From assembly GCA_902463875.1 (NCBI GenBank), contig CABQHR010000069.1:1-8575 (forward strand): a stretch of DNA of 8,575 nucleotides, read 5' to 3'. Made by a program: the position numbers and the translations under genes. Numbering within the stretch: position 1 is the stretch's first letter; each line of letters opens with the position of its first letter. The notes beneath the pieces are model-generated. The model had not been told where the DNA came from. It saw only the letters and a program-made list of their open reading frames with translations, and did no database searches. The stretch comes from an uncultured Collinsella sp. (GTDB lineage: Bacteria > Actinomycetota > Coriobacteriia > Coriobacteriales > Coriobacteriaceae). This document shows, piece by piece, positions 1,119 to 6,928 of the stretch.

Positions 1119-3341
1119 ATGAAGATCATCAAGCGCAGCGGCACCGAGGTTGTCTTTGACATCGATAAGATCGTCAATGCGATTCGCGCCGCCAACTTGG
1201 AGGTCGAGGAGAGCTCTCGTCTAACCGACCGCCAGGTGGTTTACGCGGCACAAAACGTCGCCGAGGCATGCGAGAACGCGGGCCACACCGTTTCGGTCGA
1301 GGAGATCCAGGATTTGGTCGAGGACGAGATCATGCGTCTCGACTGCTACGAGGTTGCTCGCCACTACATCATCTATCGCTATGTTCAGAGTCTGAAGCGC
1401 CAGAAGAACACGACCGACGACAAGATTTTGTCGCTGATCGAGTGCAATAACGAAGAGGTCAAGCAGGAGAACTCTAACAAGAACCCGACCGTCAATTCCG
1501 TCCAGCGTGACTATATGGCCGGCGAGATTTCCAAGGACCTGACTCAGCGTGTGCTGCTGCCCCAGGAGATCGTGGATGCCCACAATGAGGGCCTGATCCA
1601 CTTCCACGATTCCGACTACTTTGCCCAGCACATGCATAACTGCGACCTGGTGAACCTGGAGGACATGCTCCAGAACGGCACCGTTATCTCGGGCACGCTG
1701 ATCGAGAAGCCGCACAGCTTCTCGACTGCCTGCAACATCGCGACGCAGATTATCGCCCAGGTTGCTTCCTCCCAGTACGGCGGCCAGTCTATTTCGCTGA
1801 CCCATCTCGCCCCCTTTGTTGAGGTGAGCCGTCAAAAGATTCGCGGCGAGGTTGCCCGCGAGCTCGAGGAGCTCGGTGTTTCGGCATCTGCCGAGAAGGT
1901 GCGCGAGGTCGTTGAGGACCGTCTGCGTGACGAGATCCGTCGCGGCGTCCAGACGATTCAGTATCAGGTCGTGACCCTTATGACCACCAACGGCCAGGCG
2001 CCGTTTGTGACGGTCTTTATGTATCTCAACGAGGCTCGCTCAGCGCAGGAGAAGCACGACCTTGCCATGATCGTGGAGGAGACGCTTCGTCAGCGCTATG
2101 AGGGCGTTAAGAACGAAGCCGGTGTGTGGATTACCCCGGCATTCCCCAAGCTTATCTATGTACTCGAGGACGATAACGTTCACGAGAATTCCCCGTACTT
2201 CTACCTGACCCAGCTGGCTGCCAAGTGCACCGCCAAGCGCATGGTGCCCGACTACATCTCCGAGAAGAAGATGCGCGAGCTCAAGCTGTCTAAGGGCGAG
2301 ACCGCCGGCAACGGCGATTGCTACACCTGCATGGGTTGCCGCAGCTTCCTGACACCCGACCGCTCGGGCAACGGCTTTAACAATGTCGCCAACGCGCTGA
2401 ACTATGACCCGAACAAGCCCAAGTACTACGGTCGCTTTAACCAGGGCGTTGTGACCATCAACCTGCCCGATGTCGCGCTGAGCTCGCACCAGGACATGGA
2501 CAAGTTCTGGAAGATCTTCGACGAGCGTCTTGAGTTGTGCCACCGCGCTCTGCTGTGCCGTCATGAGCGTCTGATGGGTACGCTTTCGGATGCCGCACCG
2601 ATTCTTTGGCAGTACGGTGCCCTGGCGCGTCTGAAGAAGGGCGAGACGATCGATAAGCTGCTCGTGGGCGGCTATTCCACCATCAGCCTGGGGTATGCCG
2701 GTCTGTATGAGTGCGTCAAGTACATGACGGGCCACAGCCACACCGAGAAGGAGGGCACGCCTTTTGCCATGGCCGTCATGCAGCGCATGAACGATAAGTG
2801 CGCCGAGTGGAAGGCCGAAAGCGATATTGACTTCTCGCTCTACGGTACCCCGCTTGAGTCGACGACCTACAAGTTCGCCAAGTGCCTGCAGCGTCGTTTT
2901 GGCATCATCCCGGGCGTGACGGACAAGGGCTACATCACCAACAGCTACCACGTCCACGTGTCCGAGGAGATCGACGCATTCGACAAGCTCAAGTTCGAGG
3001 GCATGTTCCAGCAGCTTTCGCCGGGCGGTGCCATCTCCTACGTCGAGGTTCCCAACATGCAGGACAACCTTAAGGCTGTCATCCGCGTGATGCAGTACAT
3101 CTACGACAACATCATGTACGCCGAGCTCAACACCAAGAGCGATTATTGCCAGGTGTGCGGCTACGATGGCGAGATCCGCATTGTCGAGGACGACGGTAAG
3201 CTGGTGTGGGAGTGCCCCAACTGCGGCAACCGCGACCAGGAGAAGATGAATGTCGCCCGTCGTACGTGCGGCTACATCGGTACCCAGTTCTGGAACCAGG
3301 GTCGAACCGAGGAGATCCGCGACCGCGTGCTGCATCTCTAA
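1119..3341 (+). CDS. nrdD: Class III anaerobic ribonucleoside-triphosphate reductase
   Basis: NrdD reduces ribonucleoside triphosphates to deoxyribonucleoside triphosphates in the absence of oxygen, using a glycyl radical made by NrdG. The 740-residue protein, a normal length, starts with an ATP-cone (about residues 1-95, MKIIKRSGTEVVFDIDKI), the allosteric domain that senses ATP/dATP. The catalytic barrel follows, with C205 (FSTACNIA) and the thiyl-radical cysteine C407 in CMGCRSFL as the likely active cysteines by family comparison. The C-terminus carries a four-cysteine zinc site (C677, C680, C699, C702) and the glycyl radical motif RRTCGYIG with G718. ATG 1119 is chosen over ATG 1089 because GAAAGAGG (1104-1111) sits 7 nt upstream and the protein then begins exactly at the ATP-cone. 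It is controlled by the NrdR box upstream and ends in a hairpin 73 nt after the stop, so it is probably transcribed apart from nrdG. Confidence 0.97.
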   Translation: MKIIKRSGTEVVFDIDKIVNAIRAANLEVEESSRLTDRQVVYAAQNVAEACENAGHTVSVEEIQDLVEDEIMRLDCYEVARHYIIYRYVQSLKRQKNTTDDKILSLIECNNEEVKQENSNKNPTVNSVQRDYMAGEISKDLTQRVLLPQEIVDAHNEGLIHFHDSDYFAQHMHNCDLVNLEDMLQNGTVISGTLIEKPHSFSTACNIATQIIAQVASSQYGGQSISLTHLAPFVEVSRQKIRGEVARELEELGVSASAEKVREVVEDRLRDEIRRGVQTIQYQVVTLMTTNGQAPFVTVFMYLNEARSAQEKHDLAMIVEETLRQRYEGVKNEAGVWITPAFPKLIYVLEDDNVHENSPYFYLTQLAAKCTAKRMVPDYISEKKMRELKLSKGETAGNGDCYTCMGCRSFLTPDRSGNGFNNVANALNYDPNKPKYYGRFNQGVVTINLPDVALSSHQDMDKFWKIFDERLELCHRALLCRHERLMGTLSDAAPILWQYGALARLKKGETIDKLLVGGYSTISLGYAGLYECVKYMTGHSHTEKEGTPFAMAVMQRMNDKCAEWKAESDIDFSLYGTPLESTTYKFAKCLQRRFGIIPGVTDKGYITNSYHVHVSEEIDAFDKLKFEGMFQQLSPGGAISYVEVPNMQDNLKAVIRVMQYIYDNIMYAELNTKSDYCQVCGYDGEIRIVEDDGKLVWECPNCGNRDQEKMNVARRTCGYIGTQFWNQGRTEEIRDRVLHL

Positions 3342-3352
3342 TACCGCTCCGG

Positions 3353-3491
3353 GGCTGAGCCGAGAGGGCCGCTTGGGCTTTTGCTCGCTATTTCGGACAG
3401 TCCTGCGCAAGACGAAGGCCACATTAAGTGGCCTTCTTTGCGTGCGGAACTCATATCGAGCAAAAGCCCAAGCGGCCCTCTCGGCTCAGCC
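3353..3491. repeat. Perfect 35-bp inverted repeat enclosing a terminator
   Basis: Positions 3353-3387 are the exact reverse complement of 3457-3491, a 35-bp stem around a 69-nt interior. That interior itself contains the hairpin at 3414-3436. The left arm starts 12 nt after the nrdD stop codon. No flanking direct duplication is visible (GG on the left, AA on the right) and there is no transposase, so a MITE is possible but unsupported. A REP-like palindromic element or 3'-end stabiliser is equally possible. Confidence 0.9.
3414..3439 (+). terminator. nrdD intrinsic terminator
   Basis: A 9-bp stem, GAAGGCCAC with GTGGCCTTC (3414-3422/3428-3436), closes the loop ATTAA and is followed by TTT. 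Five further base pairs (CGCAA 3406-3410 with TTGCG 3438-3442) can form below a small internal loop. It lies in the centre of the 35-bp inverted repeat. The T run is short, so the strength is uncertain. Confidence 0.7.
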
Positions 3492-3627
3492 AAGTTGACG
3501 TAGCTGAGATGCGGCTCGCGGTCTGCTCACTCCTCGAAGTTCTTAGCGGAAATAATTCGAGCTGCAGCTGCGATTTACTTGCGATGGCGGTTGAGCCGCA
3601 ACCCAGTTTTTATTGGACCTCGAACCC

Positions 3628-3633
3628 TATACT
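3628..3633 (+). promoter_or_regulatory. Possible -10 element for the nrdG-fol operon
   Basis: TATACT differs from the consensus -10 at one base. The -35 region at the usual distance (AGTTTT at 3605-3610) is poor; a TTGGAC at 3613-3618 is only 9 nt away, too close. If used, transcripts would carry a leader of about 130 nt that includes the inverted repeat at 3670-3753. Confidence 0.35.
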
Positions 3634-3669
3634 CGATGTTCGCTTCGTTCATTGAGTTACCCTTTGCAT

Positions 3670-3753
3670 GAGGCCGGGACATATCGTCCCGCCCGCAGTT
3701 TCGCAGGCCGCAGGCCGAGAATGTTTGAGGACGGGATGATATGTCCCGGCCTC
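3670..3753. repeat. 22-bp inverted repeat in the nrdG leader
   Basis: Positions 3670-3691 pair with 3732-3753 in a 22-bp stem with one G-U pair (3686/3737) around a 40-nt loop. The right arm ends three nucleotides before the nrdG ribosome site GGGAGAG (3756-3762). It also overlaps the perfect palindrome CTCCCGGGAG (3751-3760), in which CTCCC could pair with the ribosome site. Confidence 0.85.
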
Positions 3754-3768
3754 CCGGGAGAGTTACCT

Positions 3769-4350
3769 ATGAACTACGCGAACATTAAGTATTTCGACAT
3801 TGCTGATGGGGAAGGCGTTCGTACTTCTCTGTTTGTGAGCGGGTGCCGTCGTGGGTGCAAGAACTGCTTTAACTCTGTCGCGTGGGACTTTGCTGCGGGC
3901 GAGCCCTTTGATCGTGCCGTCGAGGACAAGATTATCGAGAGCCTCGATCATCCCTTTATTGACGGCCTGACGATTTTGGGCGGCGAGCCTATGGAACCTG
4001 AGAATCAGGCGGGACTCGTTGAGTTTGTCGAGCGTGTTCGTGAGGCTTATCCCGTGGAGTCGGGGAAGACCATTTGGTGCTTTACCGGTGACGTGCTCGA
4101 GGAGCTTATGCCGGGCGGTCGTCATCATACCGAGGTGACGGATCGCATTCTTGCCTGCCTTGACATGTTGGTGGACGGCCCGTTTGTTCAAGATCTGTAC
4201 GATATCTCGTTGCGTTTTAGGGGCTCGAGCAATCAGCGCGTGATCGATATGAATGCCACGCGTGCCCGTGCTGAGCGCGAGGGCGTTGCGCTTTGTGATG
4301 CGGTTGAACTTTGGTGTGATGATCCGGTCTATTCGACCCATACTATGTAG
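3769..4350 (+). CDS. nrdG: Anaerobic ribonucleotide reductase activating protein
   Basis: NrdG is a radical SAM enzyme that uses a [4Fe-4S] cluster and S-adenosylmethionine to abstract hydrogen from the C-terminal glycine of NrdD. The 193-residue protein shows the cluster motif CRRGCKNC (C26, C30, C33), the SAM-binding GGEP (71-74) and the typical stretch DMLVDGPFVQDL followed by RGSSNQRVID (132-160). E. coli NrdG has about 154 residues; the excess is mostly a C-terminal tail from about residue 165 with two cysteines (C176, C183) and no recognised motif. The frame is open further upstream, but ATG 3769 has GGGAGAG six nt before it and gives the family N-terminus MNYANIKYFDIADGEGVRTS. It heads a block with folE 66 nt downstream. 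Confidence 0.96.
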   Translation: MNYANIKYFDIADGEGVRTSLFVSGCRRGCKNCFNSVAWDFAAGEPFDRAVEDKIIESLDHPFIDGLTILGGEPMEPENQAGLVEFVERVREAYPVESGKTIWCFTGDVLEELMPGGRHHTEVTDRILACLDMLVDGPFVQDLYDISLRFRGSSNQRVIDMNATRARAEREGVALCDAVELWCDDPVYSTHTM

Positions 4351-4373
4351 CTTGTGGTCGATGCCGGAGGGCG

Positions 4374-4382
4374 TGGTACCAT
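4374..4382 (+). promoter_or_regulatory. Possible internal promoter before folE
   Basis: TGGTACCAT is an extended -10 like sequence (TGn followed by TACCAT), with TTGTGG at 4352-4357 as a poorly spaced -35 (19 bp). It would let folE be made separately from nrdG. The match is weak. Confidence 0.3.
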
Positions 4383-4416
4383 AGCGCGAACGTGAAATCG
4401 GAAAAGTGAGGCCCAG

Positions 4417-4974
4417 ATGGTCGATCAGGAAAAAGTCGAGGCCGCCATTAAGCTGTTGCTTGAGGGCATAGGCGAGGACCCAACTCGTGAGGGCCTGCTG
4501 GAGACCCCGGCGCGCGTTGCCCGTATGTATGGTGAGATTGCCGGCGGCATGGACCAGAGTGCCGAGGAGCACCTGTCCAAAACCTTTGCCGTCGCTTCGA
4601 ACGATTTGGTTATCGAGCGCGACATTACGTTCTACTCGCTGTGCGAACATCATCTGCTGCCGTTTTATGGCAAGGCCGCCATTGGTTATATCCCTAACGG
4701 TCGGGTGGCTGGGCTTTCCAAGCTCGCCCGCACGGTTGAGGTTTATGCCCGCCGTCTTCAGCTGCAGGAGCAACTGTGCGCACAGGTTGCCGATGCCCTC
4801 ATGGATTATCTCGCTCCCCAGGGAGCGATTGTGCTGATGGAGGCCGAGCATATGTGCATGACGATGCGTGGCGTGCAAAAGCCCGGCACCAAGACCGTGA
4901 CGCTTGCTCGCCGCGGCGTCTTTGAGACCGATCCCGCGCTCGAGGAGCGTTTCTTTAGGATGCTGGGCCGCTAA
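4417..4974 (+). CDS. folE: GTP cyclohydrolase I (FolE, type IA)
   Basis: FolE converts GTP to 7,8-dihydroneopterin triphosphate and formate, the committed step of tetrahydrofolate synthesis. At 185 residues it is of normal bacterial length. The zinc and active-site signature [18 protein letters not shown] (76-93) supplies C76 and H79 as zinc ligands and H78 as the catalytic histidine. The second signature, [16 protein letters not shown] (142-157), supplies the third ligand, C147. The N-terminal helix ending in [19 protein letters not shown] (20-38) is typical of the family. ATG 4417 has AGTGAGG (4405-4411) five nt upstream. It is followed after 2 nt by the HD-domain gene and then by folB, so the three are almost certainly cotranscribed. 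Confidence 0.97.
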
Positions 4975-4976
4975 CC

Positions 4977-5558
4977 ATGAGAGTCGTCAACGACTTTACA
5001 TCGAAGACCGATGAGGGGACGTCGCGTCGCGGCTTTATGGCTTCGGGCCTGGCCCCCTTTGGTGCCATGCCTCGCATTGATTACATTTGTGCCAACGGGC
5101 TGTTCCGGCGGCACCTGGGCAACATTGCACAGTTGGAATCGGGGCGCATCTTTTGCCGCCATGGTATTGACCATCTGCTCGATGTCGCTCGCATTATGTG
5201 GATCAAGAATCTCGAGGAGCAGCTCGAATTTGACCGCGAGGTCATCTACGCCACGGCACTTCTTCACGATATCGGCAAAGATGAACAGTATGAATCGGGT
5301 ATATCCCATGATGTTGCAAGCGAACGCGTCGCTGATGCGATTCTCGGCGGCATGCCCGATGACGTGGCGTTTGAGCCGGCCGATGCCGCAGCCATTAAGA
5401 CGGCCATTCTTGGCCATCGAAAGCTGCGCGTGAACAGCCAACCGCTCGAGCGTCTGCTCTATGCAGCCGACAAAGCGTCGCGTGCCTGCTTTGCATGCCC
5501 CGCGCGCAACGCTTGCAACTGGAGCGATGATAAAAAGAACCTGTCGATTCGCGTGTAG
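4977..5558 (+). CDS. HD-domain hydrolase between folE and folB
   Basis: A 193-residue cytoplasmic HD-superfamily metal-dependent phosphohydrolase. Visible metal ligands are H62 and H66 (CRHGIDHLLDV), the HD doublet H97-D98 (ALLHDIGK), H111 (GISHDVAS) and D165 (YAADKAS). A cysteine group, C171, C174 and C180 (CFACPARNAC), follows near the C-terminus and may bind metal. The substrate is not known. Its position, 2 nt after folE and 43 nt before folB, suggests a pterin phosphate; MptB of methanogens, an HD enzyme acting on dihydroneopterin cyclic phosphate, is a precedent. The start is uncertain. ATG 4977 is translationally coupled to folE but lacks a clear ribosome site, and the conserved part begins near MPRIDYICANGLF (ATG 5067, residue 31), also without a clear site. 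The first 30 residues could therefore be untranslated. Confidence 0.88.
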   Translation: MRVVNDFTSKTDEGTSRRGFMASGLAPFGAMPRIDYICANGLFRRHLGNIAQLESGRIFCRHGIDHLLDVARIMWIKNLEEQLEFDREVIYATALLHDIGKDEQYESGISHDVASERVADAILGGMPDDVAFEPADAAAIKTAILGHRKLRVNSQPLERLLYAADKASRACFACPARNACNWSDDKKNLSIRV

Positions 5559-5601
5559 TTAGTTTGCGCGGTCGGGGTTCTAAACGAAGGAGACGATCGC
5601 G

Positions 5602-6087
5602 TTGAGTAACAAGAAACTGCCCGAGAATGCAACCAAGACTGAAGGTGCTGAGCTCGCCCGCCGTGGAAGGGGCGAAATATCCACCGCAACGGCGGTGCCT
5701 CACGTGAGCTATGACGATCTGCGCCATGCCGATCGCATTGTCATTGACGGCCTTGAGGTTTTTGCCAACCATGGCGTGTATCCCGAGGAGAATGCGCTGG
5801 GTCAGAAGTTCATCGTTTCTCTGGTGCTCTATGCCGACCTGCGCGCGGCGGGGGAGCACGATAACCTGGATGCCTCGATTGACTACGGCTCGGTGTGCCA
5901 CGATGTCGATGGCTATCTGCGCGAGCATACGTTTAAGCTCATCGAGGCGGCAGCCGAGGGGACAGCCCAGATGCTGCTGCGCCGTTATCCCTCGCTGCTT
6001 GGTGTGCGCATAAAGCTCGATAAGCCGTGGGCTCCTGTTGGCCTGCCTCTGGCAAGCTGCGGCGTCGAGATCGAGCGCGTGCGCTAG
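5602..6087 (+). CDS. folB: Dihydroneopterin aldolase with N-terminal extension
   Basis: FolB cleaves 7,8-dihydroneopterin to 6-hydroxymethyl-7,8-dihydropterin and glycolaldehyde, the third step of folate synthesis. The aldolase core covers about residues 44-161 of 161. By alignment to the S. aureus enzyme, the catalytic glutamate is E63 (HGVYPEENALGQ), the tyrosine Y95 (DYGSV), the pterin-binding glutamate E115 (KLIEA) and the lysine K141 (KPWAP). The usual protein has about 120 residues, so roughly 43 extra N-terminal residues are present; they are polar and of no known function. The TTG start at 5602 is supported by AAGGAG (5587-5592) at 9 nt. A GTG at 5704 would give a normal-length protein but has only a weak site (GGCGGTG). 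The gene ends 6 nt before the convergent neighbour's stop. Confidence 0.92.
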   Translation: MSNKKLPENATKTEGAELARRGRGEISTATAVPHVSYDDLRHADRIVIDGLEVFANHGVYPEENALGQKFIVSLVLYADLRAAGEHDNLDASIDYGSVCHDVDGYLREHTFKLIEAAAEGTAQMLLRRYPSLLGVRIKLDKPWAPVGLPLASCGVEIERVR

Positions 6088-6093
6088 TCGACG

Positions 6094-6870
6094 CTAGAGC
6101 TTGTTGAGGGGTGGCTGCTTGAGCCGCTGCGACAGAGCTTTATTGTTGGGACAGTACGTGTCGAGCAGGGCGTGGAATCGCTGATTGTGGCTTGGCTCGA
6201 GCAAGTGGACGAGCTCGTGGGCGACAACCATGTCGAGGCATTCGATGGGATAGGCGGCAAGTTCGCGTGCGATGCGAATGGCGCCGGTCTTGGGCGTGCA
6301 TGATCCCCAGCGCGTTTTCATGCTGCGCACGGAGACGCGGGCCACGGTGACGCCCATTGCGATTTCGTACGCGTGCACCATATCGTACAGCGCCGTGGTG
6401 GCCTCGGTTGCATAGAGCTGGTCGATACGGGCTTGGAGCTCATCGGACGTTAGGCCGTCGAGGATTGCGTGCCGCTTGGCCTGTGGGCCTTCGTCCGATT
6501 CGTCGGTACCCATAAAACTTGCGAAGGTGGCCTGCTTGGGCCGCGGTGCGGGCGATGCAAAGTTGTGATCGAGTGCGTCCTGTACCGTAATGGGCTTGCC
6601 CCACAGCGCAATGATGGACGAGGGGTTGAGCGGCTCTCGCGCCGTCGCCTGACGTTGCTCGCGCTGGGCAAGTCGGCTGATAATCCAGGCGCTGTTGCGC
6701 TTCGCAAACGCTTCGATACGCTCGCGGCTGGCGCCGAGCGGTGCGCTGGCATGGACCTCACCGCTCGAAGTGACGCGTAGGTTGAAGTTCTTGACGCGCT
6801 TTTTGGTAACGACGACGGGGATGAGCGTCCCATCCGGTCGGGATACGGAAATCGTAAACTGCTGCGTCAA
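6094..6870 (-). CDS. YgjP-type (DUF45) zinc metallopeptidase-fold protein
   Basis: Belongs to the YgjP/M48-like family of cytoplasmic proteins with a gluzincin zinc site; the physiological substrate is not settled. In the 258-residue form the motif HELVH (H218, E219, H222) with H228 (SHNQRF) forms the metal site. The family block RSMKTRWGSC (182-191) precedes it. Residues about 104-134 are a proline- and acid-rich linker that looks disordered. The frame is open from ATG 6933, but that start and the next ATG (6903) fall in or next to a strong hairpin (6893-6928). TTG 6870, with AAAGGA five nt upstream, gives MTQQFTISV followed by the family N-terminus and is my choice. It lies downstream of the dipeptidase on the same strand and converges on folB. 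Confidence 0.85.
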   Translation of the reverse strand: MTQQFTISVSRPDGTLIPVVVTKKRVKNFNLRVTSSGEVHASAPLGASRERIEAFAKRNSAWIISRLAQREQRQATAREPLNPSSIIALWGKPITVQDALDHNFASPAPRPKQATFASFMGTDESDEGPQAKRHAILDGLTSDELQARIDQLYATEATTALYDMVHAYEIAMGVTVARVSVRSMKTRWGSCTPKTGAIRIARELAAYPIECLDMVVAHELVHLLEPSHNQRFHALLDTYCPNNKALSQRLKQPPLNKL

Positions 6871-6892: not shown

Positions 6893-6928
6893 CGGGCCGG
6901 CATGTCGACCGTTCGGCATGCCGGCCCG
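6893..6928 (-). terminator. Hairpin between dipeptidase and ygjP-like gene
   Basis: A 15-bp stem with one G-U pair (6893-6907/6914-6928) closes the six-base loop ACCGTT. Its core is a perfect 12-bp repeat, CGGGCCGGCATG with its complement. It lies 16 nt past the dipeptidase stop in that gene's reading direction. The following sequence is not T-rich, so it is not a standard intrinsic terminator; a role in RNA processing or partial attenuation is equally likely. Confidence 0.7.

Follow-up and report, generated by a model that had tools for sequence, protein, structure and literature searches.

Which enzyme removes the phosphates from dihydroneopterin triphosphate, the product of FolE, before the pterin reaches FolB, which requires dephosphorylated dihydroneopterin as its substrate? 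We addressed this question for a contig of an uncultured Collinsella sp. (8,575 nucleotides (nt), hereafter the window), in which a gene for an HD-domain protein lies between folE and folB. As the sequence-only reading of this DNA had described, the gene is intact (an open reading frame at 4977-5558, 193 residues, matching PF01966), and its ATG follows the folE stop after 2 nt. We give a probability of about 0.52 to the reading that this protein acts as a hydrolase on the dihydroneopterin triphosphate coming from FolE and thereby supplies FolB with a dephosphorylated pterin; judged from sequence, it is a strong candidate for a dihydroneopterin-phosphate phosphohydrolase, and it would fill the role that the Nudix enzyme FolQ/NudB plays elsewhere. 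The proposal itself was already published in 2007, under the name FolQ2 (PMC1971073), and the present work adds its test by a genome survey.

Linkage of the HD gene to folB

The survey covered 197 genomes of the class Coriobacteriia, with one draw serving for HD, FolE, FolB, PTPS and NudB, and comprised 40 genomes of family f1, three of genus g33 (family f2), 71 folB-less genomes of the window's order and 83 other genomes of the class. The alignment of the HD family matched 192 of the 197 genomes at E 0.001, and these matches fell into two score groups. The gene was counted as present in the 41 genomes with a best piece of 91-276 bits; the remaining matches reached at most 35.4 bits and lie mostly in frames of 500-600 residues, the size of RNase Y, whose model is also matched by 27 of the 45 aligned members of the HD family. 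Counted in this way, HD occurs in 38/40 genomes of f1, in 3/3 of g33 and in none elsewhere (41/197 in total), including a gene split over two contigs in G009 and one in G032 that carries an insertion yet keeps an open frame. FolB was found in 43/197 genomes (40/40 in f1, 3/3 in g33 and 0/154 in the others), FolE in 183/197, and FolK in all 22 genomes checked.

In 41/41 genomes HD is followed by a folB domain that shares its contig and strand, at a distance of 23 to 1146 nt, and HD was counted in none of the 154 genomes without folB; within this survey, HD homologues are not mostly located away from fol genes. The conserved folE-HD-folB order expected by the sequence-only reading was borne out for its second half, the position of HD upstream of folB, and broke down for its first, as folE adjoins HD in 30 of the 41 genomes and is not adjacent in 11. 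In two of the latter (G016 and G033) folE lies about 5 kb from HD, the 2 kb read upstream in G006 do not contain it, and in the other eight (G072, G079, G099, G114, G127, G199, G200 and G227) it is distant on the contig, on a different contig or beyond the 6-10 kb that were read. The order nrdG-HD-folB is retained in seven of these eight, and no nrdG is present in the stretch of G200. Because folE is non-adjacent in 11 of 41 genomes and folB is downstream in all 41, the constant partner of HD is folB rather than folE.

The same data bear on the idea that the HD hydrolase serves nucleotides or housekeeping and owes its position beside folB to a historical accident of an operon within Coriobacteriaceae. 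Its appeal is that the HD fold serves many substrates, the nearest folds including SAMHD1, exopolyphosphatase HD domains and YqeK-like proteins (Foldseek and VIA-align, top 50 each), and that two genomes keep folE and folB without HD. We regard it as quite unlikely, since the HD-folB link persists in the 11 genomes without an adjacent folE and recurs in a second family, represented by g33, in which the stretch read around HD-folB revealed neither nrdD nor nrdG, and since HD is missing throughout the folB-less genomes.

A search of the protein database at E 0.001 gave 934 matching proteins, and among the relatives listed, those from outside Coriobacteriia that bear a source name belong to Mediterraneibacter (Bacillota). 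A sample of 296 genomes of the phylum contained nine with a match at E 1e-15, each of them in family f1; a tblastn search of plasmids and a search of viral contigs gave no match. The HD family has likely been exchanged between gut Bacillota and Coriobacteriia.

PTPS in genomes without folB

In the passage cited, PTPS-III-type enzymes are described as acting upstream of dephosphorylated dihydroneopterin and bypassing FolB (PMC5041015). CExxHGH is the motif reported for enzymes able to do so and given for PTPS-I/III hybrids; a passage of a further study names PTPS-III as a FolB replacement (PMC3223725). PTPS was matched in 1/40 genomes of f1 (G218), 0/3 of g33, 69/71 folB-less genomes of the order and 78/83 other genomes of the class. 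PTPS genes were read in all 69 of the folB-less PTPS genomes of the order (70 genes, one or more each), and a CExxHGH motif of the CENLHGH type was present in 66 of them, including G137, which has one gene of each motif kind. The gene read in G122, G192 and G193 (L152, L160 and L161) has CQYLHGH or CRFLHGH, and G166 and G202, both folB-less, gave no PTPS match. In two genomes of family f5 (L140 and L142) PTPS lies near folE and folD, as named from their translations. Within the order, HD is therefore found only where FolB needs its substrate, and PTPS in nearly all of the folB-less genomes; HD thus tracks the route through dephosphorylated pterin.

Outside the order, all 30 PTPS genes read, in a group with 78 PTPS-bearing genomes, lack the Glu of ExxHGH. 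As a general explanation of the folB-less genomes, PTPS fits most of the order and fails for five exceptions and for the other families of the class. None of the 83 genomes of the class that fall outside this order (families f11-f29) has FolB, yet 70 of them have folE.

Nudix proteins

The sequence-only reading had noted that FolQ/NudB is not seen here, which holds for the window. In the survey for it that this reading had proposed, the NudB model NF006961 scored above its cut-off in 0/197 genomes, with the qualification that this model is narrow and passes only 1 of 14 controls; on that basis NudB was rejected as the resident enzyme. Sub-threshold matches to NF006961 at E 0.001 occurred in 112 of the 197 genomes. 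As the model is narrow, the Nudix proteins matched by PF00293 in G001 (three) and G026 (two) were read individually. G001 is the closest genome compared (82% of sampled 31-letter words), and its HD protein is 100% identical to that of the window. Its three Nudix proteins resemble the NudE, MutT-Vsr and isopentenyl diphosphate (IPP) isomerase types, the NudE-like and MutT-like ones reaching no curated Nudix cut-off, and the two of G026 look NudE-like and MutT-like, likewise below the cut-offs. No Nudix protein of G001 was recognised as FolQ/NudB, a result that does not prove its absence.

These observations also concern a tentative alternative, rather unlikely in our view, in which the HD protein removes the last phosphate only, acting as a dihydroneopterin monophosphate phosphatase that feeds FolB after another enzyme has taken the pyrophosphate. 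The fixed partnership with folB, the user of the final product, instead of folE would suit such an activity, and HD nucleotidases that act on monophosphates exist, as exemplified by YfbR. It is disfavoured by the lack of a clear candidate for the first cut in G001, where NudB is below its cut-off and the three Nudix proteins resemble other types, an argument that is itself weak given that only one of these proteins attains a curated Nudix cut-off.

Nudix fusions were also observed in passing. A MutT-like Nudix domain is fused to a Vsr-like mismatch endonuclease in G001 (L049:922-2478; Vsr above cut-off) and, by resemblance, in G006 (L048:1468-2319), and a 583-residue frame in G026 (L045:1456-3207) joins a Gfo/Idh-type oxidoreductase to a MutT-like Nudix domain.

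Domains and conserved residues of the HD protein

The features of the window on which the following analysis draws are listed here.

4977..5558, + strand: HD-domain phosphohydrolase candidate (FolQ2-type), 193 residues, ATG start (open reading frame; PF01966; TIGR00277)
5067..5555, + strand: conserved core from M31 (start site of many relatives; M31 at least 90% conserved; predicted local distance difference test (pLDDT) high from residue 31)
5154..5174, + strand: C60-x-H62-x3-H66 segment, with Cys60 and the predicted first metal His, H66 (C60, H62 and H66 invariant in 45/45)
5265..5270, + strand: HD dyad H97-D98 (invariant in 45/45)
5487..5522, + strand: C171-x2-C174-x5-C180-x-W182, C-terminal cysteine cluster (invariant in 45/45)
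4417..4974, + strand: folE, GTP cyclohydrolase I (PF01227, 243.5 bits; TIGR00063, 217.3 bits, cut-off 181.6)
5602..6087, + strand: folB, dihydroneopterin aldolase (PF02152, 116.3 bits; TIGR00525 above cut-off)
3769..4350, + strand: nrdG-like activase, upstream (PF13353, scanned from the second codon)

The sole Pfam match of the window protein is HD (PF01966, 39.6 bits, cut-off 22), and it also scores above the cut-off of the HDIG model TIGR00277 (31.3 bits, cut-off 27.6), which is matched at E 0.001 by 45/45 aligned family sequences. Six residues, H66, H97, D98, H111, H147 and D165, which we take from their position to be the HD metal ligands, are invariant in all 45, window included, and of 215 distinct sequences with a length of 158 residues or more, 206 keep all six. 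This agrees with the earlier claim that every metal ligand is present, and the protein is predicted to be a metal-dependent phosphohydrolase. In addition, C60, C171, C174 and C180 are invariant in the 45 aligned sequences, and all four are present in 210 of the 215, a pattern that suggests a second metal site, structural or redox, which may hold Zn or an Fe-S cluster.

Residues 1-30 form a lineage-specific extension: the start of many relatives corresponds to M31, and model confidence is low over the extension (block means 44, 52 and 58). Among 20 distinct Collinsella sequences, the ratio of nonsynonymous to synonymous substitution rates (dN/dS) is 0.15 in codons 2-30 versus 0.045 in codons 31-193, and a value of 0.15 makes the extension look coding.

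Evidence weighing against the proposed role

Several of our results speak against a role of the HD protein on dihydroneopterin triphosphate. First, G026 and G205, both Coriobacteriaceae, keep folE, folB and folK and show no HD-family match above noise, with a folE-folB gap of 8 nt in G026 (a 1.7-Mb genome of the genus Collinsella) and 74 nt in G205. The step can thus be done otherwise, at least there, and the HD gene is not indispensable to a folE-folB locus; these two genomes would use another phosphatase or have lost flux. Second, since HD and folB belong to a single locus, the occurrence of one is tied to that of the other, and their co-occurrence rests on two clades, the 41 genomes being far from independent. 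Third, G122, G192, G193, G166 and G202 have neither FolB nor a PTPS with CExxHGH, and G218 (L098 and L149) combines HD, folB and a CENLHGH PTPS, with both routes in one genome; given the five exceptions and the other-type PTPS of the rest of the class, a rule of HD-folB or PTPS is incomplete. Fourth, given the narrowness of the NudB model and the assignment of the NudE-like and MutT-like names in G001 below their curated cut-offs, a Nudix enzyme with this activity may still be present. Finally, just one Foldseek match had E < 0.001, and a fold common to nucleotide hydrolases tells nothing about substrate. Taken together, the candidacy put forward by the sequence-only reading is partly supported: the survey favours it, G026 and G205 lack the gene, and the activity itself is predicted from sequence.

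A 208-residue HD-like protein encoded near the G026 locus (L086:6605-7228, - strand) was considered as a substitute for HD and rejected: it occurs in 8/8 genomes tested, six of them HD-bearing, and hence is not a specific replacement in G026. It is 74-100% identical across the eight, and the matched stretch in G001 has one TAA.

Proposed reaction

If the HD protein acts on dihydroneopterin triphosphate, the attack on one of its phosphates would come from a metal-bound water at the site formed by H66, H97, D98, H111, H147 and D165, with R57, R72, R148 and R169, and usually also K166, as residues that could bind the phosphate groups. The cut might fall between the alpha and beta phosphates, releasing pyrophosphate (PPi), or at the sugar-side ester, releasing triphosphate (PPPi), or might proceed stepwise, and the last phosphate would be removed by the HD enzyme itself or by an unspecific phosphatase. 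Both dGTPase and SAMHD1 cut at the sugar-side ester and release PPPi. A bolder version, which we consider unlikely, holds that the HD protein works in one step, as a dihydroneopterin triphosphate triphosphohydrolase that releases PPPi in the same manner and hands free dihydroneopterin straight to FolB, no unspecific phosphatase being needed; a metal centre of the four cysteines (C60, C171, C174 and C180), characteristic of the present HD subfamily, would gate or stabilise the enzyme in these anaerobes.

Should the HD protein have the proposed activity, the gap would be filled for gut Coriobacteriaceae that use the folB route, and perhaps for the relatives in Mediterraneibacter. An annotation rule would follow, with HD expected upstream where folB is present and a PTPS-III-type enzyme where folB is lacking, and a single small enzyme would become available to assay.

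Gene neighbourhood in the window

The window is a piece of a Collinsella aerofaciens-type chromosome, and its HD protein is 95-100% identical to those at 19 loci titled Collinsella. On the + strand the genes are ordered nrdD, nrdG, folE, HD and folB, followed by a convergent gene for a YgjP-like metallopeptidase, and the nrdG-like activase is the usual upstream neighbour in Coriobacteriaceae relatives too. In Collinsella strains (20 distinct sequences), 1 or 2 nt separate folE from HD. HD has a weak Shine-Dalgarno sequence (AGGA, some 16 nt ahead of the start), which is consistent with translational coupling to folE. The HD stop is separated by 43 nt from the TTG start of folB, which is preceded by AAGGAG. 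In the FolB of the window, read from this TTG start, the aldolase domain is preceded by about 42 additional N-terminal residues (5602-5727).

An 84-nt inverted repeat (3308-3391 and 3453-3536, 79% complementary) overlaps the 3' end of nrdD and contains another inverted repeat of 24 nt in its loop; inverted repeats of 16-31 nt were also observed at other gene borders (565-644, 3670-3753 and 6893-6928). A scan of 3300-6400 for sigma-70 promoter-like sites found 0 vs 1.5 expected by chance, and an Rfam scan at gathering scores gave no matches. An open frame of 183 residues at 2-553 looks membrane-like by eye and has no Pfam or NCBIfam match at E 0.001.

Comparison with known systems

MptB is an archaeal HD-family phosphodiesterase that works after MptA on dihydroneopterin cyclic phosphate. 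By description, the window protein resembles it in belonging to the HD superfamily, and the substrate of MptB is a pterin phosphate. The sequence-only reading had invoked this enzyme as a precedent, whose cyclic phosphate comes from another type of cyclohydrolase, whereas the adjacent enzyme here is an ordinary type I FolE. We consider it very improbable that the HD protein instead clears a side product, either a cyclic phosphate or a pterin epimer, in the way of MptB and outside the main line of the triphosphate: the substrate of MptB lends this some plausibility, whereas the adjacent ordinary FolE (TIGR00063) makes the linear triphosphate, although no genome search for an MptA/FolE2-type enzyme was made. 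No match labelled MptB was among the top 50 of Foldseek or of VIA-align, which is uninformative.

YqeK, an Ap4A hydrolase, shares the single-domain HD fold, and its model TIGR00488 is unmatched by the window protein at E 0.001 and weakly matched by 4 of the 45 aligned sequences (best E 1.1e-4). The best match of the window protein in both sequence and structure is 2pq7, a small single-domain HD hydrolase titled "predicted HD superfamily hydrolase", in which Cys60 is not conserved. FolQ/NudB would have the same pathway role; unlike it, the window protein has no Nudix domain, its only Pfam domain being HD.

The closest counterpart by description is FolQ2. In the cited passage, HDIG proteins in folate clusters were named FolQ2 in 2007 and proposed as FolQ substitutes, with CPE1020 of C. 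perfringens as an example, at a time when the gene for phosphate removal from dihydroneopterin triphosphate was still missing in most bacterial genomes (PMC1971073). Reconstructions of vitamin synthesis in the gut list FolQ, FolQ1 and FolQ2 as alternative folate-synthesis roles, in a passage that gives no definition of FolQ2 (PMC6593275), and genome annotations are said, in the passage cited, commonly to miss FolQ (PMC4403557). Within the open-licence literature, the term FolQ2 was found solely in PMC1971073 and PMC6593275, and neither an HD enzyme acting on dihydroneopterin or its triphosphate nor an assay of one was found. The window protein is likewise of the HDIG/HD superfamily, is encoded inside a folate cluster and is proposed for the same step, a likeness of class and location. 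To this description the present family adds features that do not appear in the cited FolQ2 passages, namely the link to folB, the PTPS alternative and the four invariant cysteines.
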